A stretch of DNA of 33,824 nt, from the NCBI GenBank assembly GCA_947462875.1, contig CANHQJ010000034.1, positions 1-33,824 of the forward strand. The letters are read 5' to 3'. The position numbers were made by a program, and so were the translations under genes. This document shows positions 6,516 through 31,769 of the stretch, piece by piece. The notes beneath the pieces are model-generated. The model did not search any database and had not been told where the DNA came from. It saw only the letters and a list, made by a program, of their open reading frames with translations. Position 1 is the stretch's first letter. Every line of letters begins with the position of its first letter. This stretch comes from Verrucomicrobiia bacterium (lineage in GTDB: Bacteria; Verrucomicrobiota; Verrucomicrobiia; Verrucomicrobiales; Akkermansiaceae).

Positions 6516-6525
6516 AGTTTCCCGG

Positions 6526-6696: not shown

Positions 6697-6705
6697 TGGC
6701 ACGCC

Positions 6706-7176: not shown

Positions 7177-7327
7177 GCGTCCATGCTAGCGACTTTCCCC
7201 ACCGCTGCCAACCGGCAAATGCGCGAACGCGGGAGGAAACACGGAATTGCCTTGCGCCGCACTTCGAATCTTTTTATCGATGGGCGTTGCCAGAGCCTCG
7301 CCTCACAACCTCTCTCTTCACACACTC

Positions 7328-8051: not shown

Positions 8052-9455
8052 TCAGCGCGCCGCCACCAGATCGTAGCCGCGCCAGTCTTTGATGGTGACG
8101 TGGGCGAAGCTGCCGACGGGGATGTCCTCGGGGACGTGAACGGAGCCGTCGATCTCCGGCGCATCCCACTCGGTGCGGGCGATGCCGGGCTGCTCCACGA
8201 GCACCTTCACCGCCTTGCCCACCTGCTCCTGATTCACCTCGCTGGCGATGCGCTGCAGGGCTTTCATCGCACGGCTCCAGCGCGATTTTTTCGTGGCATG
8301 ATGGATGTGGCCGTCCATTTTGTTGGCGCGCGTGCCTTCTTCTTTCGAGTAGGAAAAGACACCGGCGCGCTCGAAGCGGAATTCCTCGATGAAATCCAGC
8401 AACTCCTGGAAATCCTCTTCCGTTTCGCCGGGGAAACCTACGATGAACGTAGTACGAATGCCGATGTTCGGGATGCCGGCGCGCATGCGGCGGAGCAGGT
8501 CGCGGATGTAGTCGCCGGAGGTCACGCGCTTCATCGCGGTGAGCATGCGATCGGAAATGTGTTGCAGCGGGATATCGACGTATTTGGCGACTTTATCGCA
8601 TTGCGCGATGGTCTCGATCAATTCATCGCTCCAGTGCGCGGGATGGGTGTAGAGCAAGCGCACCCAGAAATCTCCCGGAATTTCATTCAGTTCGCGCAGC
8701 AAGCTGGCGAGCGAATGGCCTTTGGTGGAATCGACGGGGGAATTCGGCTTCGGCCGCGATTCGTCCCAGAGATCCATGCCGAAGTAGGTGGTGTCCTGCG
8801 AGATGAGATTGATCTCCTTCACGCCCGATGCCACGAGTGCCTTGACTTCGTTGACCACGGACTCCTGCGTGCGCGAGCGATGGCGACCGCGGATTTGCGG
8901 GATAATGCAGAACGTGCAGGTGTGGTTGCAGCCCTCGGCGATTTTCACGTAGGCGAAATGATCCGGCGTGAGACGCATGCGCGGCGTCGAGTAGTCGGGA
9001 ATGTACTGCGGCTTCAGCGTGACGAAATCGCGCGGGTCCTCGGTGGCGGAGGGACCTTCGGTTTTTTGCACTTCTTCGGCATTGTTTTTGCCTAACAGAT
9101 TTTCGATGATGGGCGCTACCTTGGTGATCTGGTCGAGGCCGATGAAGGCATCCACTTCCGGCATGATGCCGGGCAGGTCCTTGGCGAAACGCTGTGACAA
9201 GCAACCGGCGACGATGATTTTCTGGCGGGCGCGGTCTTCATTTTCCGCACGCTCCTTGACGGCCTCGAAAATGGCATTCACGGATTCCGTTTTCGCCATG
9301 TCGATGAACGAGCAGGTATTGATGATGAGCACATCGGCGAGATCGGCATCGGGCGTGAGCGCCATGCCAGCTTGCGCGAGGTGGCCGATCATGACTTCCG
9401 AGTCGATGAGATTTTTGGCGCAGCCGAGAGAGATGAGACCGACAGTGGTTTGCAT
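8052..9455 (-). CDS. rimO: Ribosomal protein S12 methylthiotransferase RimO
   Basis: RimO is a radical-SAM enzyme with two 4Fe-4S clusters that adds a methylthio group to an aspartate of ribosomal protein S12. The N-terminal domain has the three cluster cysteines C12 (SLGCAKN), C48 (INTCSF) and C85 (VAGCLSQR); the radical-SAM core has EGCNHTCTFCIIPQIRG with C176, C180 and C183. A C-terminal TRAM domain follows (VLVEQPGIARTEWDAPEIDG to the end). SLGCAKNLIDSE and the IPQIRGRHRSR stretch separate RimO from the tRNA enzyme MiaB. At 467 residues it is slightly longer than E. coli RimO. The ATG at 9455 is directly preceded by CCCACC rather than an SD site. Its substrate gene rpsL lies at the right end of the window. 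Confidence 0.96.
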   Translation of the reverse strand: MQTTVGLISLGCAKNLIDSEVMIGHLAQAGMALTPDADLADVLIINTCSFIDMAKTESVNAIFEAVKERAENEDRARQKIIVAGCLSQRFAKDLPGIMPEVDAFIGLDQITKVAPIIENLLGKNNAEEVQKTEGPSATEDPRDFVTLKPQYIPDYSTPRMRLTPDHFAYVKIAEGCNHTCTFCIIPQIRGRHRSRTQESVVNEVKALVASGVKEINLISQDTTYFGMDLWDESRPKPNSPVDSTKGHSLASLLRELNEIPGDFWVRLLYTHPAHWSDELIETIAQCDKVAKYVDIPLQHISDRMLTAMKRVTSGDYIRDLLRRMRAGIPNIGIRTTFIVGFPGETEEDFQELLDFIEEFRFERAGVFSYSKEEGTRANKMDGHIHHATKKSRWSRAMKALQRIASEVNQEQVGKAVKVLVEQPGIARTEWDAPEIDGSVHVPEDIPVGSFAHVTIKDWRGYDLVAAR

Positions 9456-13001: not shown

Positions 13002-14366
13002 CTACTTGGCGGGAGCTCGCCACGGCGTTTCTTCGCCGCGCTTGATCTGGCGGTTCAGGGCGTTAGTGAGCTCTTCGAGTATGGCGGGGTTGGTCGAGGA
13101 TACATCGTTTTTTTCTGCTGGATCGTTTTTCACGTTGTATAGTTCATACGGTTGCGCAGGATGATTTCGGAGGATTTTCCAATCGCCGCGGATGAGGGCA
13201 TGATAGGCATTGCCGAGGTAGGGTTTGCCGCCTTCGCGGCGGACGAAGTAGAGTTCTCGCTCCGGCGTGTGCAGCGGCTGACCGCGCAGGAGTGGAGCGA
13301 GGCTGACGGCATCGATTCCGGCAGGCACCTTGGCCCCGGCCAGTTCGAGGCAGGTGGGGAAGATGTCGAACAGCAGGCCGGGGTAATCGCTGCGGGCACC
13401 GGGCTTGATTTGGGCGGGCCAGCGGACCAGGAAGGGAATGCGCAGGCCGCCGTCGTAGTGGTCTTGTTTGCCGCCGCGCCATGGGTCGTTATTCTGGGCA
13501 TGGGCAAGGGAGCCACCGTTGTCCGCACCAAAAATGACCACGGTGTTTTTGGCAAGACCGGCGGCATCGAGCGCATCGAGCAGGCGGCCGATGTGGTGAT
13601 CGAGATGCTCGACAAAAGCGACATTGCGCGCGCGGGCCTCGGAGAGCTGCGGGGCGCGTTGTTTGACTTTTTGCAGCCATTCCTCGGGCGGTTGGATGGG
13701 GAAATGCGGAGCATTGTAGGCGAGGTAGAGGAAAAACGGCGCGGTGTCCTTGCGCTGACGGAACGAGTCGATGGCCCAATCGGTGAAGATCTGTGTGGCA
13801 TGACCCTTTGTTTCGACGACTTCCTGATTTTTCCGCAGGTAGTTGTTTCCGTGGCGCTGGTGCGTGTAGTAGTCGTCCATCATGTCGCCGAGGAAGCCGT
13901 GGAAAAAATCAAAGCCGCGTTCGTTCGGCAGGTTGGGTGTGGTGAGGCCGAGATGCCATTTGCCGACGAGACTGGTGTGGTAGCCGGCGCGCTTGAGTTC
14001 ATCGGCGAGTGTGGGGACTTGGGGAGCAAAGTAGCCCCAGGTGTTTTCCGGCTGTGTGCGGATGACGCCGGGCACGCCCACGCGATCGGCATAGCGGCCG
14101 GTCAGCATCGCGGCGCGCGAGGGCGAGCAGACGGTGCAGTTCGCACGCATGGTGGTAAAAAGCATGCCCTCGGACCCGATGCGGTCGATGTTCGGCGTGC
14201 GGACGACGGTGTTTTGATAGGCGGAGACGTCGCCGTAGCCGTGATCATCGGCGAGGATGACAAGGAAGTTCGGCCGCGCAGTCTCGGCCGCTGTGAGCAA
14301 CGCGCAAGGGAAAACGCAAAAGAGAGCGGTGAGGATCGCGACGATGGGGCGGCAGCGGTGGCTCAT
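13002..14366 (-). CDS. Secreted type I sulfatase (arylsulfatase family)
   Basis: Hydrolyses sulfate esters, in this phylum usually from sulfated polysaccharides or mucins. The 454-residue product has a signal peptide (residues 1-27), the metal-binding start RPNFLVILADDHGYGD (D40-D41), and the formylglycine motif C80-S-P-S-R84 in NCTVCSPSRAAMLTGRY, so it should need maturation by a formylglycine-generating enzyme or anSME not present here. Further family motifs are SLVGKWHLG and VIFGADNGG (second pair of metal ligands). The start at 14366 is chosen because it opens the signal peptide; the frame is open upstream to 14678, overlapping the TPR gene, without plausible sequence. The substrate is unknown. 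Confidence 0.92.
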   Translation of the reverse strand: MSHRCRPIVAILTALFCVFPCALLTAAETARPNFLVILADDHGYGDVSAYQNTVVRTPNIDRIGSEGMLFTTMRANCTVCSPSRAAMLTGRYADRVGVPGVIRTQPENTWGYFAPQVPTLADELKRAGYHTSLVGKWHLGLTTPNLPNERGFDFFHGFLGDMMDDYYTHQRHGNNYLRKNQEVVETKGHATQIFTDWAIDSFRQRKDTAPFFLYLAYNAPHFPIQPPEEWLQKVKQRAPQLSEARARNVAFVEHLDHHIGRLLDALDAAGLAKNTVVIFGADNGGSLAHAQNNDPWRGGKQDHYDGGLRIPFLVRWPAQIKPGARSDYPGLLFDIFPTCLELAGAKVPAGIDAVSLAPLLRGQPLHTPERELYFVRREGGKPYLGNAYHALIRGDWKILRNHPAQPYELYNVKNDPAEKNDVSSTNPAILEELTNALNRQIKRGEETPWRAPAK

Positions 14367-14429
14367 GCAAAAGCATACGGGTGAAATCGAGAAATCTTCG
14401 AGCATTGCGGTTTGTTTTGCGGCAGAGAG

Positions 14430-14464
14430 CAATAAAGCCTCTGCCACACGCGGTGACAGAGGCT
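14430..14464 (-). terminator. Intrinsic terminator of the TPR gene
   Basis: On the minus strand AGCCTCTG (14464-14457) pairs with CAGAGGCT (14443-14436) around a 13-base loop, followed by TTTATT. It lies 36 bp past the stop of the TPR gene and before the sulfatase start, so the two minus-strand genes are probably separate transcription units. Confidence 0.75.
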
Positions 14465-14499
14465 GAAACATGGTGTTCCTGGCAGGAGGATGAAGGAAA

Positions 14500-15885
14500 T
14501 CAGGAGTAAGAGGATTCCACGCGCTGGGCGACGTCGCGGTAGCCGTAATCGACTTCGTAGATCTGCTTGAAGCAATCGAGCGCGGCGGCCTTGTCCCCCA
14601 TTTCGTCGTGAATGAGACCTTTGTCGTAGAGCACTTCCTTCTTGATGTTGTCCATGCCGTGCAAATCGGCGAGGGCATCGCTCAATTGCTTGAGCGAAAG
14701 GTCGAACATCGACTTGGCCTTGAAAGTGCGGCCTAGCAGAAGAAGTACCTTGGTGCGGATGTGCGGATTGCTCTTGGCTTGTTGCAGGTGAGGAATGGCG
14801 GCGCTGTAATCGCCCGCATTGTAGAGGGCGCTGCCGAGCTCGAACCGCAGTTGCGGGTCGGTGGGGTTTTCATCCACGCGTTGTTTCGCATTGGCGACCA
14901 TTTCCGCGGAGCGGGCCTTGAGCACCTCATCGAGTTGCGCGCGCAGTTCCGCGTTGTCCGGATCGGCCTCGACGGCGGCCTGGAGCGTGGCCATTTGCTG
15001 GGCGATGAATTTATCCGACATCTGGCGTCCCTTGGTCTTGAGCGCGGCGTCGCCGTTGCTGAGGCTGAAGGCCCAGTCATAGAACGTGGTCGCGTTTTCC
15101 CAGTCTTCGAGTTGCTCGAAAATATTGGCCAGCTCCTTGGCATTGCCGAGGTTGTTCGGGTCCTCGTTGTAGCGTGCGATGAGTCGATCGCGTTTTTCGT
15201 ACATCTGATCCTTGGTCATGCCGGCGCGGGAGGCGGCTTCGAGTTCCTGGAACTCGGACTGATCTTTCATCAGATCGCGCACGCTGGAATTTTCCGTCCA
15301 GTTCTGCCGTTGCATCGAGTGCTGGGCGGCGCAGTCCTTGGAGCCTTTGATGGCTTTGGCGTCGGTGGGTTCGGCCTTGAGGATGTCGTTGTAGACTTCC
15401 CCCGCGGCATCGGCACGGCCGCGTTCCAAATAGAACAGGGCCAGCTTGTGCATGTTTTTGGTGTTGTCCGGATGGCTCTTGCGCACGGTTTCCAGTGCGA
15501 AAGCGGCGCTATCGAACAATTCCATCTTGAGCAGGCAATCGTGCAGAAGATCATTGAGACCATCGTTGAACGGATCTTTTTCCAGTTCTTTTTCGATCAA
15601 AGGCACGGCGGAAGCCGGATCTTTTTTGGCGGCTCCCTGCAGCTTCATGCCCGGACCACCGGACTCCATGCCGAAGATTTTTTGTTTTTTCTTCGGACCG
15701 CCGGTGAGGTATCCTTCGCACTTGCGCAAGAGTTCGCGGCCGACGAGGAATCCGGGATTGTCCTTGAGGATCGCCTGCAGCAAGGTCACCGCATAGGCAT
15801 GATTTTTCACTTCCACCGCGGAGAGGGCCTTCAGCCAATAGGGACGTACGGATTGTGGCAGTTCTTTGTCGGTTATTTCGGGCAT
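14500..15885 (-). CDS. Cytoplasmic tetratricopeptide-repeat (TPR) protein
   Basis: A 461-residue protein without signal peptide, built of TPR-like helical pairs: YWLKALSAVEVKNHAYAVTL near residue 16, then repeats around 115-180 (ALETVRKSHPDNTKNMHKLA, YLERGRADAAGEVYNDILKA), 240-280 (NLGNAKELANIFEQLEDWEN) and 340-450 (LRFELGSALYNAGDYSAAIP, YDKGLIHDEMGDKAAALDCF). A low-complexity basic/glycine linker (GGPKKKQKIFGMESGGPGMK) follows the first repeat. TPRs mediate protein-protein contacts; the partner is unknown. The start is preceded by two AAACACC words and no SD site. A strong intrinsic terminator follows, so it is probably a single-gene transcript. Confidence 0.85.
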   Translation of the reverse strand: MPEITDKELPQSVRPYWLKALSAVEVKNHAYAVTLLQAILKDNPGFLVGRELLRKCEGYLTGGPKKKQKIFGMESGGPGMKLQGAAKKDPASAVPLIEKELEKDPFNDGLNDLLHDCLLKMELFDSAAFALETVRKSHPDNTKNMHKLALFYLERGRADAAGEVYNDILKAEPTDAKAIKGSKDCAAQHSMQRQNWTENSSVRDLMKDQSEFQELEAASRAGMTKDQMYEKRDRLIARYNEDPNNLGNAKELANIFEQLEDWENATTFYDWAFSLSNGDAALKTKGRQMSDKFIAQQMATLQAAVEADPDNAELRAQLDEVLKARSAEMVANAKQRVDENPTDPQLRFELGSALYNAGDYSAAIPHLQQAKSNPHIRTKVLLLLGRTFKAKSMFDLSLKQLSDALADLHGMDNIKKEVLYDKGLIHDEMGDKAAALDCFKQIYEVDYGYRDVAQRVESSYS

Positions 15886-17389: not shown

Positions 17390-17542
17390 GGTGTTTTATA
17401 AAAGTTCGGTAATTTCCACAGGTGTAATCAATGCAAACGTCCTCCGCAAGCGCGGATTCCGAGCGATGAAACACGGGAAGGATAGAAGCGGCATCTTTTG
17501 CGCGTATCAGAACGAACACCTTGATGGGTGACTCTATTGATC

Positions 17543-18544
17543 ATGAATACAAAATTTTTCCTCTGTTTTTGCGTGCTCACATTCGGTGCTATGGCGGCGC
17601 CTGCTGATAAAGCCACGTGGATCGATCCCGAAGTGGCCTTGCGCGAGGATCCGGACTTTGCCGTTCAGGGGGAATACCGCAGTGCGGCGGAGGCGAGCCC
17701 GATGGGCGTGCAGGTGGTCGCGCTGGGTAGCGGGGCGTTTGACGCTTATCTGCTAGAAGGTGGCTTGCCGGGGGCAGGCTGGGAGCCGGGGAAAACACGC
17801 ACGCGGCTCACGGGAGCGCGCCAGGGACAGGCGATCGAGTGGAGCGATGAAACGAAAAAAATCCAGTGCCGCTGGGAGGAGGGAAAACTTCTGGTGACTC
17901 TCGCCGATGGCGCGAAACACACGCTCACGCGCCTGGAGCGGAAGAGCCCTACGCTGGGCAGCAAGCCACCTGCGGGCGCGGTGGTGTTGTTCGATGGCAC
18001 ATCGGCGGACGCATGGGAGAAAGGAAAGATGGAGAATGGTTTTTTGCAGGCGACGAGCTGCATGAGCAAACAGCACTTTGGCGATTACACGCTGCATGTG
18101 GAATTCCGCACACCCTACAAGCCGCAGGCGCGCGGGCAGGGACGGGGCAATAGCGGCATTTATCTGAACGGGCGCTGGGAGACGCAGGTGCTGGATTCCT
18201 TCGGTCTGGAAGGGCGCGACAACGAATGCGGCGGGGTGTATTCCCTCTCGCCGCCGCGCTTGAACATGTGCCTGCCGCCACTGGCGTGGCAGACCTATGA
18301 CGTGGATTTCACAGGAGCGAAGTTTGACGCGGAGGGCAAGCGCGTTGCCTGGCCGCGTGTCACCGTGCGACTCAATGGCGTGGTGGTGCATCAGGATCTG
18401 GAGTTGAAAAAGGACTGCACGGCGGCGGCACCGCTCTCCGCGCCCTTGCAGACGGCAAAGGGTCCGATTTTCCTGCAAGACCATGGCAATCCGGTGGTCT
18501 ATCGAAACATCTGGGTCATGCCCCGGGAGCAGGCGGGCAAGTGA
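17543..18544 (+). CDS. Secreted DUF1080 protein (3-keto-disaccharide hydrolase domain)
   Basis: DUF1080 proteins adopt a concanavalin-like jelly roll; some members cleave 3-keto-glycosides, and the family is abundant in Verrucomicrobiota and Planctomycetota. The 333-residue product has a signal peptide (MNTKFFLCFCVLTFGAMAAP). After an N-terminal region of about 120 residues comes the domain: VVLFDGTSADAW, then YTLHVEFRTP, GNSGIYLNGRWETQVLDSFG, and LNGVVVHQDLEL to GPIFLQDHGNPVVYRNIWV, all diagnostic. It ends 29 bp inside the convergent tilS gene. The start at 17543 is chosen because it opens the signal peptide. The natural substrate is unknown. Confidence 0.9.
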   Translation: MNTKFFLCFCVLTFGAMAAPADKATWIDPEVALREDPDFAVQGEYRSAAEASPMGVQVVALGSGAFDAYLLEGGLPGAGWEPGKTRTRLTGARQGQAIEWSDETKKIQCRWEEGKLLVTLADGAKHTLTRLERKSPTLGSKPPAGAVVLFDGTSADAWEKGKMENGFLQATSCMSKQHFGDYTLHVEFRTPYKPQARGQGRGNSGIYLNGRWETQVLDSFGLEGRDNECGGVYSLSPPRLNMCLPPLAWQTYDVDFTGAKFDAEGKRVAWPRVTVRLNGVVVHQDLELKKDCTAAAPLSAPLQTAKGPIFLQDHGNPVVYRNIWVMPREQAGK

Positions 18545-20222: not shown

Positions 20223-20375
20223 ATGATAGACAGGAATGAGAGAGAAAATGTGACGGAGCAGCCGTTGCCGCATCGGGTGCCGGCACCGCGATTCTATTTG
20301 CCAAGTGACCATCATGTGTGCATGAGTGCGTCGGTCACAGCTGAACCCCAATTCCATGGCCTACTAACCAAATGA
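20223..20375 (+). CDS. 50-residue small protein at the head of the ABC/HlyD/TolC operon
   Basis: An ATG at 20223 opens 50 codons (MIDRNERENV... to ...FHGLLTK) and ends in a TGA that overlaps the exporter's ATG as ATGA. An AAGGA site (20213-20217) sits 5 bases before the start, one of the clearest Shine-Dalgarno sites in the window. The peptide is hydrophilic, rich in His and Pro, has a single Cys (C33) in a DHHVCM segment, and shows no signal peptide, membrane helix or double-glycine leader. It may be an exported peptide, a small regulatory subunit of the exporter, or only a translated leader that couples ribosomes onto the exporter mRNA. I do not recognise a family. Being a real translated ORF is inferred from RBS plus coupling. 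Confidence 0.55.
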   Translation: MIDRNERENVTEQPLPHRVPAPRFYLPSDHHVCMSASVTAEPQFHGLLTK

Positions 20376-22486
20376 AGCACTCCAAGGGACCCACAGGAAA
20401 CTACATCGAGCGCATCTACCGGGCGCTGGAGACCGTATCACAGGAGACGTCGCTGGACCCGCTGGCGCGATGTGCGCCGGTGCTGGATCAACAAGGCTTG
20501 CGCATCACTTTGTACCGGTTCTCTCTGGCGAAAGCCGTGTGGCAAGCGCAGATCGATTCGCCTGTCATTGTATGGAGCGAGCCGGAAAAGCGGTTTTTGA
20601 TGATCCTTCATGCGGGAACATTCCGCGTCAGGCTGATCACCCAGGGCGATGCCGTCGATCATGTCACGACCCTATCGCGCGCGGCCCTGGCGAAGCGTTT
20701 GGGTCTGAGCAGCGTGAATCAGGAACTGGAGGTGGGGTTGATCCATCCGAAGCTGATGTCGGAGTCGGCGAGCACACAAACAGCCTTGCGTGAAATGCGC
20801 GAGGCGGGCCATTATGACGACGATTCCCATCACGATCCGCATGATCACATGCCGCCGTTTCGCCGGTTGCTCAAGATCCTGCGACCCGAGCGGAGGGAAA
20901 TCCTGTTGTTGCTGGTATTCGCCGTTTTCTCCGGCATTCTCTACCTGGCATTGCCGCTGGTGATTGATAATGTGGTGACGAATTTGGCATTCGGCTCACA
21001 AACCAAGCCCTTTTTTCAGGCCCTGGTGGTGATCGGTCAACTGCTGGCAGCCTGTTTGCTATTGCAAGCCTTGATCATCGGTTTCCAATACTATGTGGCG
21101 GAACTGATCCAGCGTCGAATCATTGTGCGCATCGCCGGGGATCTGTCATACCGCCTGCCGCGCGTGGCGGTGCGTGCGATCGATCATTTGCACGCTCCCG
21201 AATTGGTGAACCGCTTCATGGACTCGGTCACCGTGCAGAAAAACACCGCGTTTTTCTTGCTGGACGGCATCAATGTGGTGGTGGCGACCGTGATCGGTTT
21301 GCTGTTGCTCGCGCTCTATCATCCGTATCTCATCGTCTTTGTGGCGATCCTGATCCTGCTGATCGTGGCATTCACCTGGCCCTTCGGTCGCAAGGCCGTG
21401 GACTCGGCGATTCTGGAATCGCGCTGCAAGTACGACTTGGTCGGCTGGTTCGAGCAGGTGGCCACCTACCCTTTTATGTTCAAGGGCCGGGGCGGCTATG
21501 AAATGGCGTATCAGCGCACCAACCAGCTGGCCGCGCAGTATGTACATGCCCGCCGCTACCATTTCAAGCTGGTGCTGCAGCAAATCTCTGGATTGCTCTT
21601 CGTCTCGGTCATTTCGAGCGTGGCGCTGCTGATTCTGGGAGTGACGCTGGTGTTGCGCCAAGAGCTGACACTGGGGCAATTGGTGGCGAGCGAGCTCATC
21701 ATGAGCAGCATCGTGGCCTCTGTCATCAAACTCGGGAAAAAACTGGAAACGTGGTATGACACCCTGGCTGCGACCGATAAATTGGGGCACTTGCTGGATC
21801 TGGAGACCGAGACCGAAGAAGGTGAGGTGGTCGCTGTCGCACAGGACAGCAAGGGCATGAAAGTGGAAGCAAGAGGCGTGAGATTCGGCTACCACAAAGA
21901 CGATCCCATTTTCCAAAATCTCAGTTTCACCCTGGAACCGGGAACGCGTGCCTGCATCTGTGGTCCCCAGGGCAGTGGCGTCAGTTCTTTGCTGGACCTG
22001 TGTTTCGCGCTGCGCGATACGGACGACGGTTACCTGAGTTTCGATGGCCTGGACATGCGTTCCTGGCATCTGGAATCCCTGCGTCACTCCATGGAACTCC
22101 TGCGCCGCGATGAATTCGTGGCAGGCTCCGTGATGGAAAATCTCCGCCTCGGGAGAACGGATATCACGGTGGACGAGGTCCACACGGCCCTGAAAACCGT
22201 AGGCATGCTCGATGAGTGCCTGCATCACCCCGATGGCTTGGAACGAATGCTGCAAGTGGGCGGCTCACCCTTTTCCACGCGTCAACGCGTGGCCCTGCTG
22301 ATCGCGCGCTCATTGGTGCAGAAGCCCCGCTTGCTGTTGATCGATGAAATTTTCGACGGACTGGACGAGCGCACCTTCGGTCTGATCACGAGTGTGGTGT
22401 TTGATCGCAAGCGACCCTGGACCGTCGTGGTGGCCACCCGCATGAACGAGGTGCGTGAAATGTGTGAACAACGAATCGAACTCTGA
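20372..22486 (+). CDS. Type I secretion-like ABC exporter with a degenerate nucleotide-binding domain
   Basis: A 704-residue half-size exporter. Residues 1-140 resemble the catalytically dead C39-like domain of HlyB-type transporters (SPVIVWSEPEKRFLMILHAG) and lack a peptidase Cys motif. An Asp/His-rich linker (147-159) leads to six membrane helices (about 174-430), then the ATPase domain (about 505-704). That domain is abnormal: Walker A reads GPQGSGVSS with V537 where Lys is expected; the Q-loop Gln is R578; the signature is FSTRQ (634-638) instead of LSGGQ; the H-loop His is T689. Walker B (LLLID658-E659) is intact. It is coupled to the small ORF upstream and followed by HlyD- and TolC-like genes, so it should be the inner-membrane part of a tripartite exporter. 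Whether it hydrolyses ATP is doubtful. Confidence 0.85.
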   Translation: MKHSKGPTGNYIERIYRALETVSQETSLDPLARCAPVLDQQGLRITLYRFSLAKAVWQAQIDSPVIVWSEPEKRFLMILHAGTFRVRLITQGDAVDHVTTLSRAALAKRLGLSSVNQELEVGLIHPKLMSESASTQTALREMREAGHYDDDSHHDPHDHMPPFRRLLKILRPERREILLLLVFAVFSGILYLALPLVIDNVVTNLAFGSQTKPFFQALVVIGQLLAACLLLQALIIGFQYYVAELIQRRIIVRIAGDLSYRLPRVAVRAIDHLHAPELVNRFMDSVTVQKNTAFFLLDGINVVVATVIGLLLLALYHPYLIVFVAILILLIVAFTWPFGRKAVDSAILESRCKYDLVGWFEQVATYPFMFKGRGGYEMAYQRTNQLAAQYVHARRYHFKLVLQQISGLLFVSVISSVALLILGVTLVLRQELTLGQLVASELIMSSIVASVIKLGKKLETWYDTLAATDKLGHLLDLETETEEGEVVAVAQDSKGMKVEARGVRFGYHKDDPIFQNLSFTLEPGTRACICGPQGSGVSSLLDLCFALRDTDDGYLSFDGLDMRSWHLESLRHSMELLRRDEFVAGSVMENLRLGRTDITVDEVHTALKTVGMLDECLHHPDGLERMLQVGGSPFSTRQRVALLIARSLVQKPRLLLIDEIFDGLDERTFGLITSVVFDRKRPWTVVVATRMNEVREMCEQRIEL

Positions 22487-22518: not shown

Positions 22519-23829
22519 ATGAACTCTCCCACTCCCATCAAAAAGCAACCATGGCAACAAAGCCGGCTGCCCGCGATCAATCTCACGGGCTCGAACCGGC
22601 TGCCGCATTTGTTCAGCCGCGCACTGGTCATCGCGTTTTTCGTATTGATCCTCTTCGTGGCATTCACCCCATGGCGTCAGTTCGTGCGCGGCTCGGGCCG
22701 GGTGATCGCCTATGATCCGCTGGAGCGCCGCATCAATGTCGAGGCGCTGGTCTCCGGGCGCGTCAGCAAACTGCACATCAACGAGGGTCAGAAAATCAAG
22801 CAGGGTGATCTCATTGCGGAAATCCAGGACAATGACCCGAATCTTCTGGAGAATCTCCGCGCCCAACGCACGGCCGCGATGAATCGCATCGACCTGGTGA
22901 AAACCCGGGTCGAGGCGCTGGAATCGCAAATCGCCCAGCAAACCATGGCCAAGGAACAAGCCCTGGATGCCGCGCGCCAAAAAGTCAGCGCGGATAAAAT
23001 CGCGGCGGAAACCGCCATGCTCGACTACACCCGCGTGGACAATCTTTTCCAAAAAGGCCTCAGCTCGCGCCGTGAATTCGAGGCGGCGATCCTGCGTCGC
23101 GACTCCACCGCGGCGAACTTGCTCTCCTCCGAAGCCACCCTGAAACGCACGGAAAACGAGTTCAACGCGCTCATCTCCTCGACCACCGCCTCGCGCCAGT
23201 CCGCTCGCAGCGACATCGCCAAAGCACAGGAAGAGCTGACGGGGCTGGAAATCCGCGTCAGCCAAAACATGCGCCAGGTCATCACCTCGCCGCGCGATGG
23301 CATCGTGCTGCAAGTCCCGGTGACGGAAGGCAGCTACTTGAAACCCGGCGATCCGCTTTGCGTGGTCATTCCAGACACGCAAACGCGCTATGCCGAGGTG
23401 TGGGTGGATGGCAATGATGTGGCGCTCATCCGTGCGCGCAAAGAAGTGGATGGAGTGGTCACTCCGGGCAGCCCCGTGCGCTTGGTGTTCGAGGGCTGGC
23501 CGGCCATTCAGGCGATCGGCTGGCCGCAGCTCGCCGTCGGATCCTTCGGCGGCGAGGTGATGTATGTGGATGCCACCGACGATGGCGAAGGGAAATTCCG
23601 CGTGCTGGTGGCCCCCGCCGAGGACGTGGTGGACCGTGGCGATGGCAATGGCCCTGTTACCGTTCCCTGGCCCGATGGCGACCGCTGGCTGCGTCAGGGA
23701 GTGCAGACGAATGCCTGGGTCCTGCTGGATGAAGTGCCGCTGTGGTTCGAACTGTGGCGCCAGATGAACGGATTCCCCGCCATCGGTAAGGGGATGAAAG
23801 AGGAAACCGAAAAACTGAAAAAGAAATGA
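22519..23829 (+). CDS. HlyD-family periplasmic adaptor (membrane fusion protein)
   Basis: Bridges an inner-membrane exporter to an outer-membrane channel. The 436-residue protein has one N-terminal membrane helix (ALVIAFFVLILFVAFTPW), two lipoyl half-motifs (LVSGRVSKLHINEGQKIKQG near 76 and ITSPRDGIVLQVPVTEG near 255), a coiled-coil hairpin between them (about 110-245), and a beta-barrel region. The C-terminus is unusual for HlyD: tryptophan-rich with FEGWPAIQAIGWP, DATDDGEGKFRVLVAP, and LRQGVQTNAWVLLDEVPLWF then ELWRQMNGFPA, marking a distinct subgroup. It is 32 bp after the exporter gene and overlaps the next gene as ATGA. Confidence 0.92.
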   Translation: MNSPTPIKKQPWQQSRLPAINLTGSNRLPHLFSRALVIAFFVLILFVAFTPWRQFVRGSGRVIAYDPLERRINVEALVSGRVSKLHINEGQKIKQGDLIAEIQDNDPNLLENLRAQRTAAMNRIDLVKTRVEALESQIAQQTMAKEQALDAARQKVSADKIAAETAMLDYTRVDNLFQKGLSSRREFEAAILRRDSTAANLLSSEATLKRTENEFNALISSTTASRQSARSDIAKAQEELTGLEIRVSQNMRQVITSPRDGIVLQVPVTEGSYLKPGDPLCVVIPDTQTRYAEVWVDGNDVALIRARKEVDGVVTPGSPVRLVFEGWPAIQAIGWPQLAVGSFGGEVMYVDATDDGEGKFRVLVAPAEDVVDRGDGNGPVTVPWPDGDRWLRQGVQTNAWVLLDEVPLWFELWRQMNGFPAIGKGMKEETEKLKKK

Positions 23830-25250
23830 TCAGGCGCCACATTTCCCGTCTCGGTTGGCTGTGCTGTCTGCTGGCACCGTTTTCCTTACACAGCGCGCCC
23901 TTGCAACTGGATGATGTGCTAACGACGCTGCGCACCCAGTATCCGCCGCTGGTGGCTGCCTGGCTCCAACAGGATATCGCCAATGGCAAAATCCGTCAGA
24001 CTGTGGGCGCCTTCGATCCGATGCTCATCGCCTCGCTGAATTTCCGCCCGCTCGATTACTATGAGGGAGCGAACATGAGTTTCCTCGTCGACCAGCCTCT
24101 GCTCTCCGGGGGCAGCGTGTACGCGGGCTATCGCTTGAGCACGGGAGATCTGCCGGACTATGACCGCAAGGACCGCACCTCCTCCTCGGGGGAAGGGGTC
24201 CTGGGCGTGCGAATCCCTTTGCTGCGTGACCGGGCCATCGATTCCCGCCGCGCCAATATGGGCAAGGCGGCGGTCGATCGCGAGTTGGCCGATCCTTTGA
24301 TCCTGCGCCAGTATGTGACGTTCCATCGCAGCGCGCGGATCGCCTACTTCAACTGGATCGCCGCGGGAGAGCGGCTGGAAGTGGCGGAAAAGGTCCTGCG
24401 CGTCGCCAAGCAACGCGATGAATTTCTCAAAAAACAATCCGAGGAGGGTGCCATCGCGCCGATTGTCCTCGTTGACAACCGCCGTTTGGTGGTGAGCCGG
24501 GAAATCGCCGTGCTCAATGCGAACCGCCGGTTTCAGGCCGCCTGCATCGAGCTTTCTCTCTTCCATCGCGACCCGAAAACCACCGAGCCCATCTTGCCCC
24601 TGCGCGCCCAGTTGCCGCAGGCCTTTCCCAAGCCCCAGGCGGTCGATCAGCTCCAGTTCGTCTCCGACCGTGGCCGGGCCGTTTTTCGCAGACCGGAAGT
24701 ACGCGAAATCGATCTCCTGCTGCGCAAAGGTGACATCGACAAAAGCCTCGCCAACAACAACCTGAAGCCGAACCTAGATCTCGCCATGGAATTGAATCAG
24801 GCGATCGGTCACGATGTGCCCAAGGACATCGAAGAAACCGAGATCATGGGCTTGCTGCGTTTTTCGGTGCCCATCGGCCGGAACGAAGCGAAGGGGCGGC
24901 TCGAAGCCATCGAGGCGAGCATCAAACAGCTCCAGCAACGCCGGAAATTTGCCTGCGAGCAAATCACAGCGGAATCAAACAACACCTATCAGGAGCTGCG
25001 CACCGCTCTGGAAGCCCTGGATCAGACCAAACTCAACGTCGATCTGGCCCGTCAACTCGAGGCCGCGGAGAACGAGCGCTTCGCCCAAGGGGCCACTGAC
25101 CTGCTGACCTTGCAGATCCGTGAACAAGCTACCTTTGATGCGGAGATCCTGGAAATCGACGCGTTTCTGGCATTCTATCGCGCGCTGGCAGACTATCAGG
25201 CCGCCGTCGCCGCTGATGCGCCCTCCCACTTGCTCAGCAGTCAAAAATGA
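23826..25250 (+). CDS. TolC-family outer-membrane channel protein
   Basis: Outer-membrane efflux/secretion channel. The 474-residue product has a signal peptide (about residues 1-23, ending LHSAP) and two repeats of beta-hairpin plus long alpha-helices typical of TolC-type trimers: RSARIAYFNWIAAGERLEVA and EVAEKVLRVAKQRDEFLKKQ in the first half, IEASIKQLQQRRKFACEQIT and ALEALDQTKLNVDLARQLEA in the second, ending FYRALADYQAAVAAD. Coupled by ATGA to the HlyD gene, it completes the exporter-adaptor-channel set. No lipobox Cys is evident. The next gene is on the opposite strand and a terminator hairpin lies between the two stops. Confidence 0.9.
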   Translation: MIRRHISRLGWLCCLLAPFSLHSAPLQLDDVLTTLRTQYPPLVAAWLQQDIANGKIRQTVGAFDPMLIASLNFRPLDYYEGANMSFLVDQPLLSGGSVYAGYRLSTGDLPDYDRKDRTSSSGEGVLGVRIPLLRDRAIDSRRANMGKAAVDRELADPLILRQYVTFHRSARIAYFNWIAAGERLEVAEKVLRVAKQRDEFLKKQSEEGAIAPIVLVDNRRLVVSREIAVLNANRRFQAACIELSLFHRDPKTTEPILPLRAQLPQAFPKPQAVDQLQFVSDRGRAVFRRPEVREIDLLLRKGDIDKSLANNNLKPNLDLAMELNQAIGHDVPKDIEETEIMGLLRFSVPIGRNEAKGRLEAIEASIKQLQQRRKFACEQITAESNNTYQELRTALEALDQTKLNVDLARQLEAAENERFAQGATDLLTLQIREQATFDAEILEIDAFLAFYRALADYQAAVAADAPSHLLSSQK

Positions 25251-25258
25251 CACCGCAT

Positions 25259-25295
25259 AAAAAAAACATCTCTCATGACGGGCATGAGAGATGTT
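25259..25295 (-). terminator. Strong intrinsic terminator for the beta-barrel gene
   Basis: A perfect 13-bp stem (25265-25277 with 25283-25295, loop 25278-25282) is followed on the minus strand by a run of T continuing to 25259. It lies 33 bp beyond the stop of the minus-strand barrel gene. On the plus strand the hairpin lacks a U tract, but it may still limit read-through from the TolC gene, whose stop is only 15 bp away. Confidence 0.9.
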
Positions 25296-25327: not shown

Positions 25328-26155
25328 TTAGAAGGCGTAGGTCACGGAAACGCCACCGTAGACATCATTGCGGGTTTCGTTCACGTTGAGATCTTTACGG
25401 GTCTCAAGGCCGAAGTTGCATGCGATGTAGGGGGTCACGGTGACGGAATCGGTGGCTTTGTAAGGAGCGGAGAGAGCCGCGCGAACGTGCGTGAGGCCTT
25501 CTTCGTCAGAGCCGTTGTTGGTGTAGTAGTCGATGGCGTAGCCCATTTGCACCACAGGCACGAGCGAGAGCTTGTCGTTGACTTCGTAGGTGTAGTCAAG
25601 GCCGGCCTCATAGTACCATCCGTCGATTTTGGTATCGAACCAGCTGCCCAGATACAGTTTGAAGTCGCCGAAGCTCTTCGTCATGGTAAGGCCGATGTCG
25701 AGCGCGTTTTTGACTTCCGCGTCATAGATGCCGCCTCCGTTGGAAACACCGTCGATTTCACCGGAGAAGGTTTCGAAGAAGTGGTAGTTGGTGACCACCA
25801 GGCCGAAAGTCGCGAAATCGTGCTCGTAGCTCAACGAGGCGATCAGGTCCATTTCGGAGTAGTCGAGTTCCCCGCCGCCGCCAGCGATATTGGTGTCAAC
25901 GGTCTCCGTGTAGAGAGCGCCGAGGCCAAGGGTCAATTTGTCGGCAATCGGAGCCGAGAGGTTGACGGCACCCCAGAAGTTGTTGTTGGAGAACCAAAGA
26001 CCGCGGAAGTAGTACGAGCTGTCAAAGCCAGCGCTGACGCTTCCCGTGATCCACGGTTCGGTGGTTGCCGTTGTCGCCGTTGCTTCCGTGGTGCCCGCAG
26101 CAGCGGCACTGGTAGCGAGGATTGCCAAGGAGGACAATTTCAATAGTGTTTTCAT
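25328..26155 (-). CDS. Outer-membrane beta-barrel (porin-like) protein
   Basis: A 275-residue exported protein: signal peptide about residues 1-20 (MKTLLKLSSLAILATSAAAA), then a Thr/Ala-rich segment and alternating amphipathic strands with many aromatic residues (GSVSAGFDSSYYFRGLWFSN, LGLGALYTETVD, YEHDFATFGLVVTNYHFFET, KLYLGSWFDTKIDGWYYEAG), ending in ...VSVTYAF with the C-terminal phenylalanine used in barrel assembly. The exact family is not certain; similar small barrels are annotated as putative porins. The ATG at 26155 is preceded by AACACCATACGA with no SD site. It has its own strong terminator and a long upstream gap, consistent with a separately controlled, well-expressed gene. Confidence 0.8.
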   Translation of the reverse strand: MKTLLKLSSLAILATSAAAAGTTEATATTATTEPWITGSVSAGFDSSYYFRGLWFSNNNFWGAVNLSAPIADKLTLGLGALYTETVDTNIAGGGGELDYSEMDLIASLSYEHDFATFGLVVTNYHFFETFSGEIDGVSNGGGIYDAEVKNALDIGLTMTKSFGDFKLYLGSWFDTKIDGWYYEAGLDYTYEVNDKLSLVPVVQMGYAIDYYTNNGSDEEGLTHVRAALSAPYKATDSVTVTPYIACNFGLETRKDLNVNETRNDVYGGVSVTYAF

Positions 26156-27541: not shown

Positions 27542-30500
27542 TTATTGCGGAAGAATCAGGCGGTAGAATTCCTTGTCTTCGATTTTCGGGAAGGTGATAT
27601 CGAGCGCACCGGCGGGATCCCAATCGTTTGCCTGAAGGGTGGAGGATTTTTCGATGGGCAGGCTGAGGGTGACGTTGCCATTTTGCACTTGCACCATCAG
27701 GTTGCCGGCACCGCGCAGGTCTTGGATCGACGCGGCGGTGTAGAGGCTGTAGCTGCCGGGGTTCGATGTCACATCGGTGCGACCCGCGGTCCGGATGCCG
27801 GCGAGCGCGGCATTGATCTGGGCGGAGGTGTTGATCACATCCGGATTCAGACCGAGCGATCCCACTTCGATGATGTTGCTGTAGCCGTCGCCGTCGCTGT
27901 CGGTGGTGCCTTGGAGGATGCGGCGGTCCAGTCCCACGACGGTGTCAGCCTTGGCGAAAGCGGTGACGTTGTGGAAGGCGCGCATGTATTCGGCGAAGGC
28001 ATCTTGCTCGGTGCCAGCACCATTCACACCACCGAGGGCGCTGATGGCGGAGGTGTAAGCATTGGCCGAGCCGTCGGTGGTGAGATCCACGCGATTCGCC
28101 GAAGCATTCGTGCGGATGGCCCAAGGATAAGGGTAGGAATCACCGCCAAAGTCCGAGCCGGTCGGCGAGGAATTGGCGAGGAAATTCAGCGTGACCAAAC
28201 GAATCGGACGATTCGGATTGAGCAAGATGCCGTTCGAGACCAGCACTTCCGTGGGATTGCCGTTGGCATCCACCAGCGCCGCATAGCGGATGCGAGTACC
28301 GCCAGTGATGGCGGTGATTTGCGTGGGGCTGCCGGAGCTGGTGTAGCTGATCGCGGTTTCCGCAAGGTCTGCCACGACCGTGATGCCGCCGAGCTGGCAG
28401 AACTGGCCGGGGGTGGCCTTGTCCGCACCAACGCCGTTGCTACCCTGGACGCCGTGCTCCAACAGAACCTTGAGCTGTGCTGCGGTGACCGTAAGCAAGC
28501 TGAGGTTGTTGTTGAACTTGAGCGAGTCTTCCACATCGAGCTGCGAGATGTCGCCCGCGGTTTTGAAGGCCGAGGGATTGGCAGCGGTGGGTTGGGGGAC
28601 GCCGTTGGAATCCACCGAGCCGATGGAGTTACGGATGCCGCCGCCATTCTTGATCGAGACCTCCACGGTGGAGTCGATCTGCTTCGCATACCAGAGGTTG
28701 GCATCAGCGGAGAGATTGCCAAAGTTGGTTTCCTGCTGGCGGACGTTGGTGCGGCGGCCTTCCAGATAGACGGAGGATTTGCCGATGATGAGGCCGTCTT
28801 TGGCAACGATGACGGCGTTGACCGCATCGGTGACCGCTTTCACGGTGCCGCCGCGTGTGCCGGTGGCGTAGGGATCCTGTGCGCCCCAGGCAGCGGTGAC
28901 GGCTGCGGCGTTCACGGTAATATTGTTGCTCGCGGCATCGATGCCGGTGATGTGACCCTGGGCATTGAAGTCCACGATGAGCTGACCGAGGTACTGATAC
29001 TGACCTTCGCCACTGACGACGGCGACGGTGCGTCCATCGAGGTCGGTGGCGGTGAAGGGGTAATTTTCCGCAATGCTGTCACCGGGCTGGAGCACGGTGC
29101 CGGGCTTGGCCATGATGGTGCCGGAACCACCGGCGACAATGATGTCCACGTGGCGCATCTTGGTGGCTAACAGTTTTTCGTTTTCCACCTGCTGCAACTG
29201 GGTGGCCATGACGATCTTGTTGCATCCGGCGGCGACGAGGGCGTCCACGGTGGGCTGCAAGTGAGCGGCGAGCGCATCAATGTCATAGGTGCGCGGGGAA
29301 ACGACGACGGCACCGGTGGGGCCGGTGACGGTGACGAGACCGGGCGAGGAGATGCTGGCGAGGTCCGGCGGCGTCACGCCGAGCACGCCGATTTTTTCGC
29401 CACCGCGCTCGATGATCGCGGCCTTGGCGAGTTTAGCATTGGTGGGCGAGGCGCTGAGACCGGGGTAGTTTTCGTTAGGATGCGGTGCGAAGGCGCCGAT
29501 GTTGCGGATGGCGCTGGTGAACCGCGGCGCGAGATCGGTCACCGCGGGGGGAACGGAAACGGCGGCGCTGAAGTCGAGGTTCGCACTGAGAAACGGGAAG
29601 GCCGCGCCGTAGTGGCGCATGTTCGTGCGACTGGTTTGCGGCACTGGCAGCACGATGTTGCCGAACTCGGTAGTGCCGAGGTCGAACTCGTGGTTGCCGA
29701 TACAGGTGGCATCGAAGCCGATGGAGTTCATGATCGCGATGTCCGGACGACCGGGGTTCTCGCGCAGGTCGGTGTTTGTCCCGCCGGCATTGTAGCCGAA
29801 GACGAAGCCTTGCGCGGTCTTGAGTGCATTTCGCGTGGAAACATCATTGCCTGCGGACAAAAACGCACCGGGGATGAAGCAGTCTCCCGCACCGATGGTA
29901 ATGGAGGCGCTGTTGCTGGAGATGTCTTCGAGCTTATCGACGAGGGCGGCGAATTGCGGTGCGGTGACGATGGAGGAGGTGTCAGCCTCCATGTCGGATG
30001 CGTGCAGCACTTGCAGGCGGAAGGAGGGTGGATTGATTTCATAAACACCCACGCCGCCAGCGACACCACCATCAGAGATACCTTCATAACCTACGATGGC
30101 CATAGTAATTCCGGTGGGGCTATCGGCAGCATCGACGATGGTGACGGTCTCGGGCGAGATCAGGCCTTTGCCGCTGTCGTTGATGTAGCGCAGGACTTGA
30201 GGTGAAGCGGGGTTGGTGATATCGACGACGATCACGCCGTTCTGGCGCTCCATGCCGGCGACGGCGATGACGGTGCCATTGGCGAGAGTGGTGACAGCCA
30301 CGGCTTCAGGCTCGGGGCCTTTGTCATCGGAGCGGGCATCGAAGGCGGTTTTCAGTCCGCCATCGTTCGCATTGTGGCGCTGGGGATCGCGTTGGAAGAG
30401 CTCATTCTCGAGTGGCAGGTGGGAAACGAAACTGAGCGAGTGATCGGCTTCTTTTTTCCACAAGGAAAGCCCGCGGGAGCCCATAGTGACGATCTTGTTG

Positions 30501-31702
30501 ATGTCGGAGTTGGGTGCCGTGGTCGGGAAAACTGGGCCGTTGAGCGATTGATCCCGCAGGACGTTGAGACGACCGTAGTCGTTGTTATTGGTGGAAACGG
30601 AGAATCCGGTGGCAAAGCCATAGGTGCTGGAAAAGGCAGCCAAACGCTGGATATCGCCATCATCGACGCGGGCGTCTCCTTCATCGGCGGTAATGACATA
30701 CACTTCACCATCTTTTGTCCATGAGGCAATGGCATCGGGCATGTGCAGGCCGAAGGCGGGATTGGTGACGTCGAAGATGTCATCGTTGTCCGAGGCATCG
30801 ATGGTGATGGCGCGCTGGCCGAGGTCGGTGACTTTTTCCCATGCGAGCGTGGCGACATCGAAGGTGGCGATGGCGTTGTTTTCTTGCAGGCCTACGAAGA
30901 TCTTCGTGCTATCGGGCGAGAAGGCGAGATACTCGGGCTCGATGTGGAAGTACTTCGCCTTGGTGTTGGCGGGATCGAAGGACGTGTGATCGCGCAGTCC
31001 GGCGATGAGAGTGGGCACGCTGCTGAAGTCGATGGTATTGACGGTGAGCGTAGAGAAGTTAAAGGTGGCGATGTTTCCGGCGTTCACGGCGGAGGCATCG
31101 ATGAACGTGATCGAACCGGGTTGCTGCACGCCATCGAAAGCCGCGACGTTGACGCCGCTACCAGCCCAGGCGTGCTGTCCTTCATTAGCGAAGGCGATTT
31201 TTCCGCCCTTGATTGTGACCATGTCCGGATGAGATCCGGCGGCTGCGGAGCCGAGAATGGTGCCGTCGTTCAGATTGAAATACAACACACGCCCGGTCTG
31301 AGGAACAGTGGTGGTATAGTTGGTGCCGCCTACGTTGACGGTGGATGCGTTGATTGCGGTGGCCACGCCGAGACCGGAGCCGTCCTTGTCAAGAGCCACG
31401 CCCGTGACATCGCTATAAACGAAGCCCGCGACAGGATTCGCCGCGAACCAGGCGGCGATGTCCACCGTGGTATGATTGACAAACTGCGTGCCGTTGTGGC
31501 GCATCAGGCGGATGCCGCCCGCGGAGTTGTCCGTGACAGCGAGCGTGTCGTTGGTGGGAGAAAAGGACACCACCTCACCGGCGGCAACTCCCAGTGGAAT
31601 GACTTGGTGCTGGCGCAGGCCAGTGACCTGCGCGTCGAGCGGGACTTGTGCGAGACCCATCAGGGTCGCAACGAACAAATAGTGAGTGAATTTTGCTTTC
31701 AT
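27542..31702 (-). CDS. Secreted choice-of-anchor I beta-propeller fused to a 5'-nucleotidase-like phosphatase
   Basis: A 1386-residue exported protein. After a signal peptide (MKAKFTHYLFVATLMGLAQV...DAQ) comes a choice-of-anchor I/propeller region to about residue 550 (SFSPTNDTLAVTDNSAGG, YVITADEGDARVDDGD, EPEAVAVTTLANGTVIAVAG). The metallophosphatase domain begins LQVLHASDMEAD (about 560) and includes GNHEFD (about 667), while the C-terminal 5'-nucleotidase domain has NFGNLSADA and KNGGGIRNSIG. A DSDGDGYSNIIE calcium-type loop and a terminal beta module end the protein. Classic metal ligands look altered (DxE instead of DxH, GGSGT instead of GHSH). It probably releases phosphate from nucleotides or organophosphates outside the cell. 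The start at 31702 opens the signal peptide; the frame continues to 31723. Confidence 0.9.
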   Translation of the reverse strand: MKAKFTHYLFVATLMGLAQVPLDAQVTGLRQHQVIPLGVAAGEVVSFSPTNDTLAVTDNSAGGIRLMRHNGTQFVNHTTVDIAAWFAANPVAGFVYSDVTGVALDKDGSGLGVATAINASTVNVGGTNYTTTVPQTGRVLYFNLNDGTILGSAAAGSHPDMVTIKGGKIAFANEGQHAWAGSGVNVAAFDGVQQPGSITFIDASAVNAGNIATFNFSTLTVNTIDFSSVPTLIAGLRDHTSFDPANTKAKYFHIEPEYLAFSPDSTKIFVGLQENNAIATFDVATLAWEKVTDLGQRAITIDASDNDDIFDVTNPAFGLHMPDAIASWTKDGEVYVITADEGDARVDDGDIQRLAAFSSTYGFATGFSVSTNNNDYGRLNVLRDQSLNGPVFPTTAPNSDINKIVTMGSRGLSLWKKEADHSLSFVSHLPLENELFQRDPQRHNANDGGLKTAFDARSDDKGPEPEAVAVTTLANGTVIAVAGMERQNGVIVVDITNPASPQVLRYINDSGKGLISPETVTIVDAADSPTGITMAIVGYEGISDGGVAGGVGVYEINPPSFRLQVLHASDMEADTSSIVTAPQFAALVDKLEDISSNSASITIGAGDCFIPGAFLSAGNDVSTRNALKTAQGFVFGYNAGGTNTDLRENPGRPDIAIMNSIGFDATCIGNHEFDLGTTEFGNIVLPVPQTSRTNMRHYGAAFPFLSANLDFSAAVSVPPAVTDLAPRFTSAIRNIGAFAPHPNENYPGLSASPTNAKLAKAAIIERGGEKIGVLGVTPPDLASISSPGLVTVTGPTGAVVVSPRTYDIDALAAHLQPTVDALVAAGCNKIVMATQLQQVENEKLLATKMRHVDIIVAGGSGTIMAKPGTVLQPGDSIAENYPFTATDLDGRTVAVVSGEGQYQYLGQLIVDFNAQGHITGIDAASNNITVNAAAVTAAWGAQDPYATGTRGGTVKAVTDAVNAVIVAKDGLIIGKSSVYLEGRRTNVRQQETNFGNLSADANLWYAKQIDSTVEVSIKNGGGIRNSIGSVDSNGVPQPTAANPSAFKTAGDISQLDVEDSLKFNNNLSLLTVTAAQLKVLLEHGVQGSNGVGADKATPGQFCQLGGITVVADLAETAISYTSSGSPTQITAITGGTRIRYAALVDANGNPTEVLVSNGILLNPNRPIRLVTLNFLANSSPTGSDFGGDSYPYPWAIRTNASANRVDLTTDGSANAYTSAISALGGVNGAGTEQDAFAEYMRAFHNVTAFAKADTVVGLDRRILQGTTDSDGDGYSNIIEVGSLGLNPDVINTSAQINAALAGIRTAGRTDVTSNPGSYSLYTAASIQDLRGAGNLMVQVQNGNVTLSLPIEKSSTLQANDWDPAGALDITFPKIEDKEFYRLILPQ

Positions 31703-31769
31703 ATGGTGGACGCATTTCGACAATGCAATCGCACGATAGAAACCGTGGCGTCATCGGCAACCGGTTTGC

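Follow-up and report, generated by a model that had tools for sequence, protein, structure and literature searches.

What drives an exporter of the ATP-binding cassette (ABC) type when its ATP site has lost its catalytic residues? The question is raised by a gene on contig CANHQJ010000034.1 (GenBank assembly GCA_947462875.1) from a Verrucomicrobiia bacterium of the Akkermansiaceae, of which positions 1 to 33,824 were analysed and are here called the window. The exporter gene is followed by genes for an HlyD-family periplasmic adaptor and a TolC-family outer membrane factor. Its dead ATP site almost certainly marks a conserved exporter family, found in three phyla, and for this reason the protein probably runs on something other than ATP. 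The best explanation overall, to which we give a probability of about 0.5, is a tripartite exporter with a pseudo-ATPase nucleotide-binding domain (NBD), probably driven by protons, an energy source that we infer. The exporter gene comprises the following features.

20372–22486, plus strand: pseudo-ABC exporter, 704 residues, operon gene 1; open reading frame (ORF) intact, with an ATG start.
20459–20749, plus strand: N-terminal domain (residues ~30–126), probably a C39-peptidase-like fold, with no conserved Cys, from model, Foldseek and alignment.
20852–21796, plus strand: type IV exporter transmembrane domain (TMD, residues 161–475), better conserved than the NBD among family members.
21692–21694, plus strand: codon of Glu441, in transmembrane helix 6 (TM6).
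21758–21760, plus strand: codon of Asp463, in TM6.
21857–22483, plus strand: pseudo-NBD (residues 496–704).
21962–21985, plus strand: altered Walker A, GPQGSGVS, with Val537 for Lys.
22103–22108, plus strand: Q-loop position, R578 (conserved) and R579 (aligned to the canonical Gln).
22271–22285, plus strand: altered signature FSTRQ (634–638).
22331–22348, plus strand: Walker B, LLLIDE, retained.
22436–22438, plus strand: H-loop position, Thr689.

The preliminary description of this DNA had reported an ATPase domain with Val537 at the Walker A lysine, FSTRQ for LSGGQ, a retained Walker B pair (D658–E659) and Thr689 at the H-loop histidine, and all of these were found as it stated. The loss of the Q-loop glutamine which it also reported stands, as arginine occupies the aligned site too, but its placement at position 578 does not: the glutamine, present in 51/51 control exporters (see below), aligns to 579. 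One-residue shifts occurred between alignments at the Q-loop and the H-loop, and the positions given by HMMER against P-glycoprotein and by the control alignment were adopted. Both put T689 opposite the canonical histidine; a first alignment had placed R690 there, and the one-residue shift still gives no histidine in the window. Relative to canonical exporters, the family lacks one residue in the H-loop stretch.

The exporter remains recognizable by profile, with an ABC_tran match at residues 515–660 (58 bits) and an ABC_membrane (PF00664) match at residues 178–341 (39.4 bits against a cut-off of 28). Its own genome has 52 ABC_tran matches, and of those spanning almost the full domain it has the lowest score (61.9 bits, the next being 70.8); it reaches only 173 bits with the NCBIfam model type_I_sec_LssB (TIGR03375), for which the curated cut-off is 693. 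None of the motifs by which the NBD of a type I exporter is recognized (a working Walker A Lys, the Q-loop Gln, LSGGQ and the H-loop His) was found in it. As far as its sequence tells, the system sits in a type I exporter's place but fails the ATPase test that defines that family.

The losses are not peculiar to the window. A family set of 86 Verrucomicrobiota sequences, the window exporter included, was compared with a control set of 51 canonical half-exporters from the same order as the window genome. The Walker A lysine is replaced in 85/86 family members (A 40, C 14, V 10, S 8, G 6, T 4, I 2, M 1), and the single aligned lysine belongs to an outlier, L124, whose P-loop is destroyed. Gln at the aligned Q-loop position and the second Gly of the signature are each found in 0/86, and the H-loop His in 0/84 (T 79, S 5), two contigs stopping short of the H-loop. 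Each of these four residues is present in 51/51 controls. The preliminary description had proposed aligning homologues from HlyD/TolC operons for conservation of the losses, and the aligned relatives do share them.

Relatives were collected by several searches. Among 57 genomes (own included), 14 clear relatives of the exporter were found, with 44–88% identity. A scan of GTDB contigs gave 123 confirmed relatives; it used two peptide patterns, which bias it toward the pseudo-ABC exporter family. Counts of loci given below cover the best 80 of the 123, and canonical members could be among the 43 weaker relatives. The family was found in 70/386 genomes drawn from the order and in 6/288 drawn from the phylum (3–4 candidates scored per genome); over these prevalence scans and those for adaptor co-occurrence 3–6 candidates were scored per genome, and absences are uncertain. 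Among named strains, Brevifollis gellanilyticus NBRC 108608 carries a member (L072). One genome of the window's genus (G003) carries a copy only 47% identical to the window's, suggesting that the operon was transferred horizontally or is an old paralogue. Another member groups with Verrucomicrobiota and lies on a contig labelled Deltaproteobacteria (L110), which may reflect a mislabelled contig or a gene transfer.

Searches of plasmid sequences by tblastn extended the family to two further groups. The whole protein (E ≤ 1e-40) retrieved 2 Persicobacter records, and the TMD alone retrieved 22, all Bacteroidota or Sphingomonadales by organism name; the HlyD protein matched 20 records in the same genera except Sphingopyxis, and TMD queries from Novosphingobium and Riemerella recovered only the same genera. 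From the 22 TMD records 14 loci were analysed, 3 Riemerella and 5 sphingomonad records being left out, which brings the sequences examined to 100 (86 Verrucomicrobiota, 10 Sphingomonadales and 4 Bacteroidota). Exporter, HlyD and TolC stand together in 12/14 plasmid loci by annotation or homology; in Novosphingobium sp. RL4 an adaptor match adjoins the exporter within a stretch without annotated features. In Novosphingobium aromaticivorans DSM 12444 the member is SARO_RS19820, at the head of SARO_RS19820–19810. In a tree of the TMD the 100 family sequences group in a single clade that excludes all 51 controls (support 0.81), within which the Sphingomonadales branch with the Verrucomicrobiota (96 leaves, support 0.997).

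The plasmid-borne members have lost other parts of the site. In Sphingomonadales the Walker A Lys is found in 0/10, the P-loop pattern is broken and one residue shorter, Ser or Gly replaces the Walker B Asp in 9/9 sequences that reach Walker B, and the second signature Gly is present in 4/9. In Bacteroidota the aligned Walker A Lys is kept in 4/4, the second P-loop Gly is found in 0/4, and Asn or Lys takes the place of the Walker B Asp in 4/4. No Gln was found in the Q-loop stretch in any of the 14 plasmid sequences, nor a His opposite T689 in any of the 13 that reach the H-loop. By these alignments, the lost motifs differ by lineage and the ATP sites are eroded in different ways. The preliminary description had allowed that same-operon homologues with canonical motifs might exist, making the window exporter an isolated degenerate copy; no complete set of motifs was found in the 86 Verrucomicrobiota or in the 14 sequences from other phyla. 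Ten plasmid members carry gene-table names, 7 as 'ABC transporter ATP-binding protein' and 3 as 'ABC transporter transmembrane domain-containing protein'. Despite the ATP-binding label that most of these bear, a complete ATP site was found in none of the 100 sequences examined.

A dead site could also belong to a pseudogene decaying in one lineage. The ratio of nonsynonymous to synonymous substitution rates (dN/dS) was computed on 22 of 28 selected close pairs, saturated pairs giving no ratio, and lies at 0.035–0.155 for the NBD (18 computable of the 22 pairs) and 0.015–0.082 for the TMD (20 pairs); the N-terminal domain is looser, with values up to 0.295. These values indicate that NBD and TMD are both under purifying selection, and that the NBD is retained rather than decaying, yet changing faster than the TMD. 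Median identity within the family (first 60 rows) is higher in the TMD (0.63) than in the NBD (0.53), and among the controls the order is reversed (TMD 0.20, NBD 0.48). The outlier L124, from another family of the phylum, has lost its P-loop altogether; 58/68 TMD and 19/26 NBD core columns survive in it, and HlyD and TolC genes adjoin.

Individual copies do speak for decay. In the closest relative of the window exporter (88% identity), an in-frame TAA separates the N-terminal domain from the TMD (L010 ~1852–1854, the same as L039 ~9352–9354); beyond it the frame reads open, and it may be a real stop or an assembly error. The exporter frame of Sphingopyxis sp. 113P3 stops within the NBD beside an annotated IS3 transposase (L178 ~6220–7583), with no HlyD or TolC annotated after it. 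Set against these two cases, the losses are common to the 86 sequences, dN/dS is far below 1 and the operons are whole wherever contigs reach, so that a pseudogene is refuted as a general explanation and its chance is negligible. The view of the preliminary description that the gene is not a decayed pseudogene is borne out by the low dN/dS of the NBD.

The exporter stands in an operon whose other features are as follows.

22519–23829, plus strand: HlyD-family periplasmic adaptor, 436 residues, with a conserved Trp-rich C-terminus; intact.
23826–25250, plus strand: TolC-family outer membrane factor, 474 residues; intact, its start overlapping the hlyD stop by 4 nucleotides (ATGA).
25265–25295, minus strand: terminator-like stem of 13 pairs 3' of tolC, by consensus match only.

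The intact frame with HlyD and TolC partners that the preliminary description had noted was thus confirmed. The gene order exporter–HlyD–TolC recurs, with HlyD in 77/80 and TolC in 73/80 of the loci, and the missing cases fall at contig ends. The distance matrices of the three proteins correlate with r of 0.89–0.92 (72 loci), compared with a maximum of 0.26 in 300 permutations. By gene order and distance, the three stand together and diverge together; among the 288 phylum genomes the adaptor was found in the same 6 as the exporter. Apart from shadow frames, the largest group of neighbouring genes occurs in 16/80 loci, and no further broadly conserved neighbour or candidate substrate gene was found in them.

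Such a system might still use ATP through a partner, as the preliminary description had suggested in proposing that the exporter pairs with another ATPase. Degenerate sites are common in heterodimeric exporters, according to a review (PMC7756269), and an ATP-competent half-exporter encoded elsewhere could complete the dimer. No ABC gene lies directly beside the operon in the 80 loci. The flanking DNA examined, never more than 9 kb and frequently shorter, contains an NBD ORF in 4/80, the nearest being an ABC ATPase ORF ~2 kb downstream on the opposite strand (L100). Twelve genomes were searched for partners, short or partial matches excluded, and 37 other half-exporters were compared from 8 same-genus genomes, 5 with the operon and 3 without; G009 (of the same genus, 82% complete) and, from other genera, G014, G017 and G029 stood outside this comparison, and G002 was unsearched. 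None of the half-exporters tracks the operon, as the groups common to the 5 positive genomes also occur in all 3 negative ones. The groups are coarse (42% identity, single linkage), and a housekeeping half-exporter could serve as partner. However, the family signature lacks its second Gly, so that a mixed dimer would have damage at both of its ATP sites. The pairing is accordingly disfavoured, and we regard it as improbable.

The proposed pump would work as a homodimer. The preliminary description held that a homodimer would lack two functional ATP sites, and this follows from the sequence. Candidate residues for coupling to another energy source lie in the TMD. E441 (TM6), K353, W359 and Q404 are each present in 100/100 family sequences and in 0/51 controls at the same position; Y462 (99/99) and D463 (98/99) are likewise found in 0/51, and positions 441 and 463 are acidic in none of the controls. 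H317 is invariant in the 100 family sequences and occurs in 5/51 controls. The coupling-helix residues R281 (100/100) and D284 (95/100) are kept as in the controls.

We hypothesize that the exporter is the inner-membrane pump of a tripartite, type-I-secretion-like system, and that its NBD is a non-hydrolysing pseudo-ATPase. The two NBDs would hold the dimer together and contact the coupling helices, protonation of membrane acids would drive the ABC-type TMD through alternating access, with Glu441 and Asp463 of TM6, together with His317, as candidate proton-carrying residues, and the substrate would pass through HlyD and TolC to the outside. An ABC-type exporter that works without ATP is plausible because there are precedents: MsbA without its NBD is reported to export ethidium with a pH gradient (PMC4979069), and SbmA is described as proton-driven, with an ABC-type TMD and a glutamate ladder (PMC13316013). 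The best ungapped match in TM6, to the SbmA segment starting at 347 (score 12.3, the next being 2.6), puts SbmA E378 on D463, a parallel that is suggestive only. From the lost motifs, ATP-independent operation appears likely; proton drive itself is put at close to an even chance. The wider proposal is that at least three phyla have a class of tripartite exporters derived from an ABC exporter that turned into a proton-driven secondary transporter and kept its NBD as a catalytically dead scaffold; we advance it tentatively, at somewhat less than even odds.

A conserved charged network need not mean a pump. As a gated channel, passive conduit or sensor, the dimer would open a path to HlyD and TolC upon binding, with no active pumping. 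CFTR is an ABC protein that became a channel, and no energy-coupling residue is proven in the present family. The dedicated HlyD and TolC genes and the strongly conserved charged network of the TMD nonetheless look like those of an active exporter, and a permanent passive route through both membranes would be costly. We consider the channel unlikely.

Several observations weigh against a proton-driven pump with a dead ATP site. According to the paper on SbmA, the ATP-type YddA also carries part of its glutamate ladder (PMC13316013). MsbA missing only the Walker A Lys is described as strongly inhibited or transport-inactive (PMC4979069), so that losing this lysine is not in itself enough to yield a proton pump. 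No homology to SbmA emerged when profiles of the TMD were compared (HHalign probability 0.1). Glu441 could line the substrate path instead of carrying protons, and its comparison, like that of D463, was with same-order half-exporters, HlyB and PCAT1 forming no part of it. The literature searched yielded no measurement of transport, ATPase activity or ATP binding for a family member. In the NBD, P-loop glycines 2 and 3 are each kept in 85/86 Verrucomicrobiota, the Ser after the lost Walker A Lys in 82/86, the Walker B Asp in 86/86 with Glu or Asp at the next position in 81/86, and the A-loop Tyr in 70/86. Since the P-loop glycines, the Ser, Walker B and the A-loop Tyr remain, the Verrucomicrobiota members may still bind nucleotide. 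A Gln lies one residue past the Q-loop position in 18/86, and a His one residue past T689 in 2/84 (L104, L106).

These retained residues bear on a further alternative, in which ATP is still bound or hydrolysed by a re-engineered site with substitute residues, such as R578 for the missing Lys. R578, which precedes the Q-loop position, is conserved in 82/86 family members and found in 0/51 controls, and the kept Walker B, P-loop glycines and A-loop Tyr of most Verrucomicrobiota, with the purifying selection on the NBD, are in keeping with such a site. The H-loop His, the Q-loop Gln and the second signature Gly are also lost, however, and the Walker B Asp is gone in Sphingomonadales and Bacteroidota, as is the P-loop pattern in Sphingomonadales. 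A re-engineered ATPase therefore seems to us about as unlikely as a channel.

The predicted structure is of the type I exporter kind. The full-length monomer model (predicted local distance difference test score 84.6, predicted template modelling score 0.65) has its best matches in PCAT1, which gave the best Foldseek matches, and HlyB (8dck, Z 27.1 over 609 residues, root-mean-square deviation (rmsd) 20.8), with an rmsd of ~20 Å or more from known exporters over the whole chain. The modelled NBD alone fits the TAP1 NBD at 2.0 Å over 218 residues. By sequence the TMD matches solved exporters weakly (best E 1.2e-7). The N-terminal domain was modelled alone (predicted local distance difference test score 85.7); its top Foldseek match is Josephin-2 (E 0.002) and the next are mostly C39 peptidase domains (E 0.017–0.1), none reaching E ≤ 0.001. 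From this model the domain is probably C39-like. No conserved Cys was found in it in the family alignment; in HlyB the catalytic Cys of the C39-like domain is described as missing (PMC8277102). Where present, the domain hints at a peptide or protein substrate. It appears to be absent in L108–L112, L114–L118, L124 and L170–L177, comprising some of the Verrucomicrobiota members and those of Aureibacter, Riemerella and Sphingomonadales; as some members appear without it, it is not essential to the family.

The system can be compared with several known ones. It resembles the type I exporters HlyB and PCAT1 in overall fold, which probably includes a C39-like N-terminal domain, and in the operon with HlyD and TolC, and differs in having lost, throughout the family, the catalytic residues of Walker A, Q-loop, signature and H-loop. 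With SbmA/BacA (SLiPT), which needs no ATP, it shares an ABC-exporter-type TMD and an acidic TM6 residue at the E378 position. Unlike SbmA/BacA, it keeps the NBD fold and the coupling-helix motif, has HlyD and TolC, and presumably exports; SLiPT proteins are defined by having neither NBD nor coupling helices, and the window exporter has both. Of the SLiPT glutamate ladder, one position could be mapped, E378 to D463, by the one ungapped match, the rest being unalignable, and homology to SbmA across the whole TMD was rejected on the HHalign result. Degenerate NBD motifs and a similar fold are shared with the heterodimeric exporters TM287/288, TmrAB, BmrCD and TAP, which differ in that no canonical partner was found here and the losses hit both halves of the site.

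The SecA_DEAD and M50–HlyD loci of Planctomycetes and Verrucomicrobia are likewise type-I-like and lack a canonical ABC ATPase; the study of them describes SecA_DEAD and M50 proteins and reports no ABC transporter found (PMC4452313). They were set aside as a different system, only exporter, HlyD and TolC being broadly conserved in the 80 loci by general clustering, with no SecA or M50 profile used. 'HlyBD2-OMP2' of Blastomonas fulva, described as an HlyB–HlyD–OMP set with a 1659-bp hlyB and a best match in Novosphingobium aromaticivorans (PMC9505733), is classed there as an ABC-type pump and is possibly a family member, compared by description only. Reviews deal with the degenerate sites of heterodimers and with type I systems driven by ATP (PMC7756269, PMC8277102). 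No description of an ABC family with both sites dead was found in titles and abstract openings of the literature searched (mostly outside subscription journals, and without bioRxiv preprints).

If members pump, the frame of an ABC exporter can switch its energy source while retaining its NBDs. The family offers natural variants, with mildly to fully eroded ATP sites, for probing roles of the NBD other than burning ATP, and would let the intrinsic proton coupling of ABC-type TMDs claimed for MsbA be tested in a natural system. If the proton-driven reading is true, the exporter would be the counterpart of SbmA for export, with HlyD and TolC as its route of secretion.

Around the operon, the window carries genes of other kinds. 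Upstream of the exporter lie a 3-keto-disaccharide hydrolase gene (17528–18544) and a sulfatase gene (13002–14678), a combination typical of polysaccharide-degrading Verrucomicrobiota. Convergent with tolC, positions 25328–26155 encode a 275-residue protein with no Pfam match, a homologue of which occurs at the same place in 3/80 other loci (L039, L040 and L064). On the minus strand, positions 27542–31723 contain an ORF of 1393 residues with choice-of-anchor I and 5'-nucleotidase C-terminal domains.

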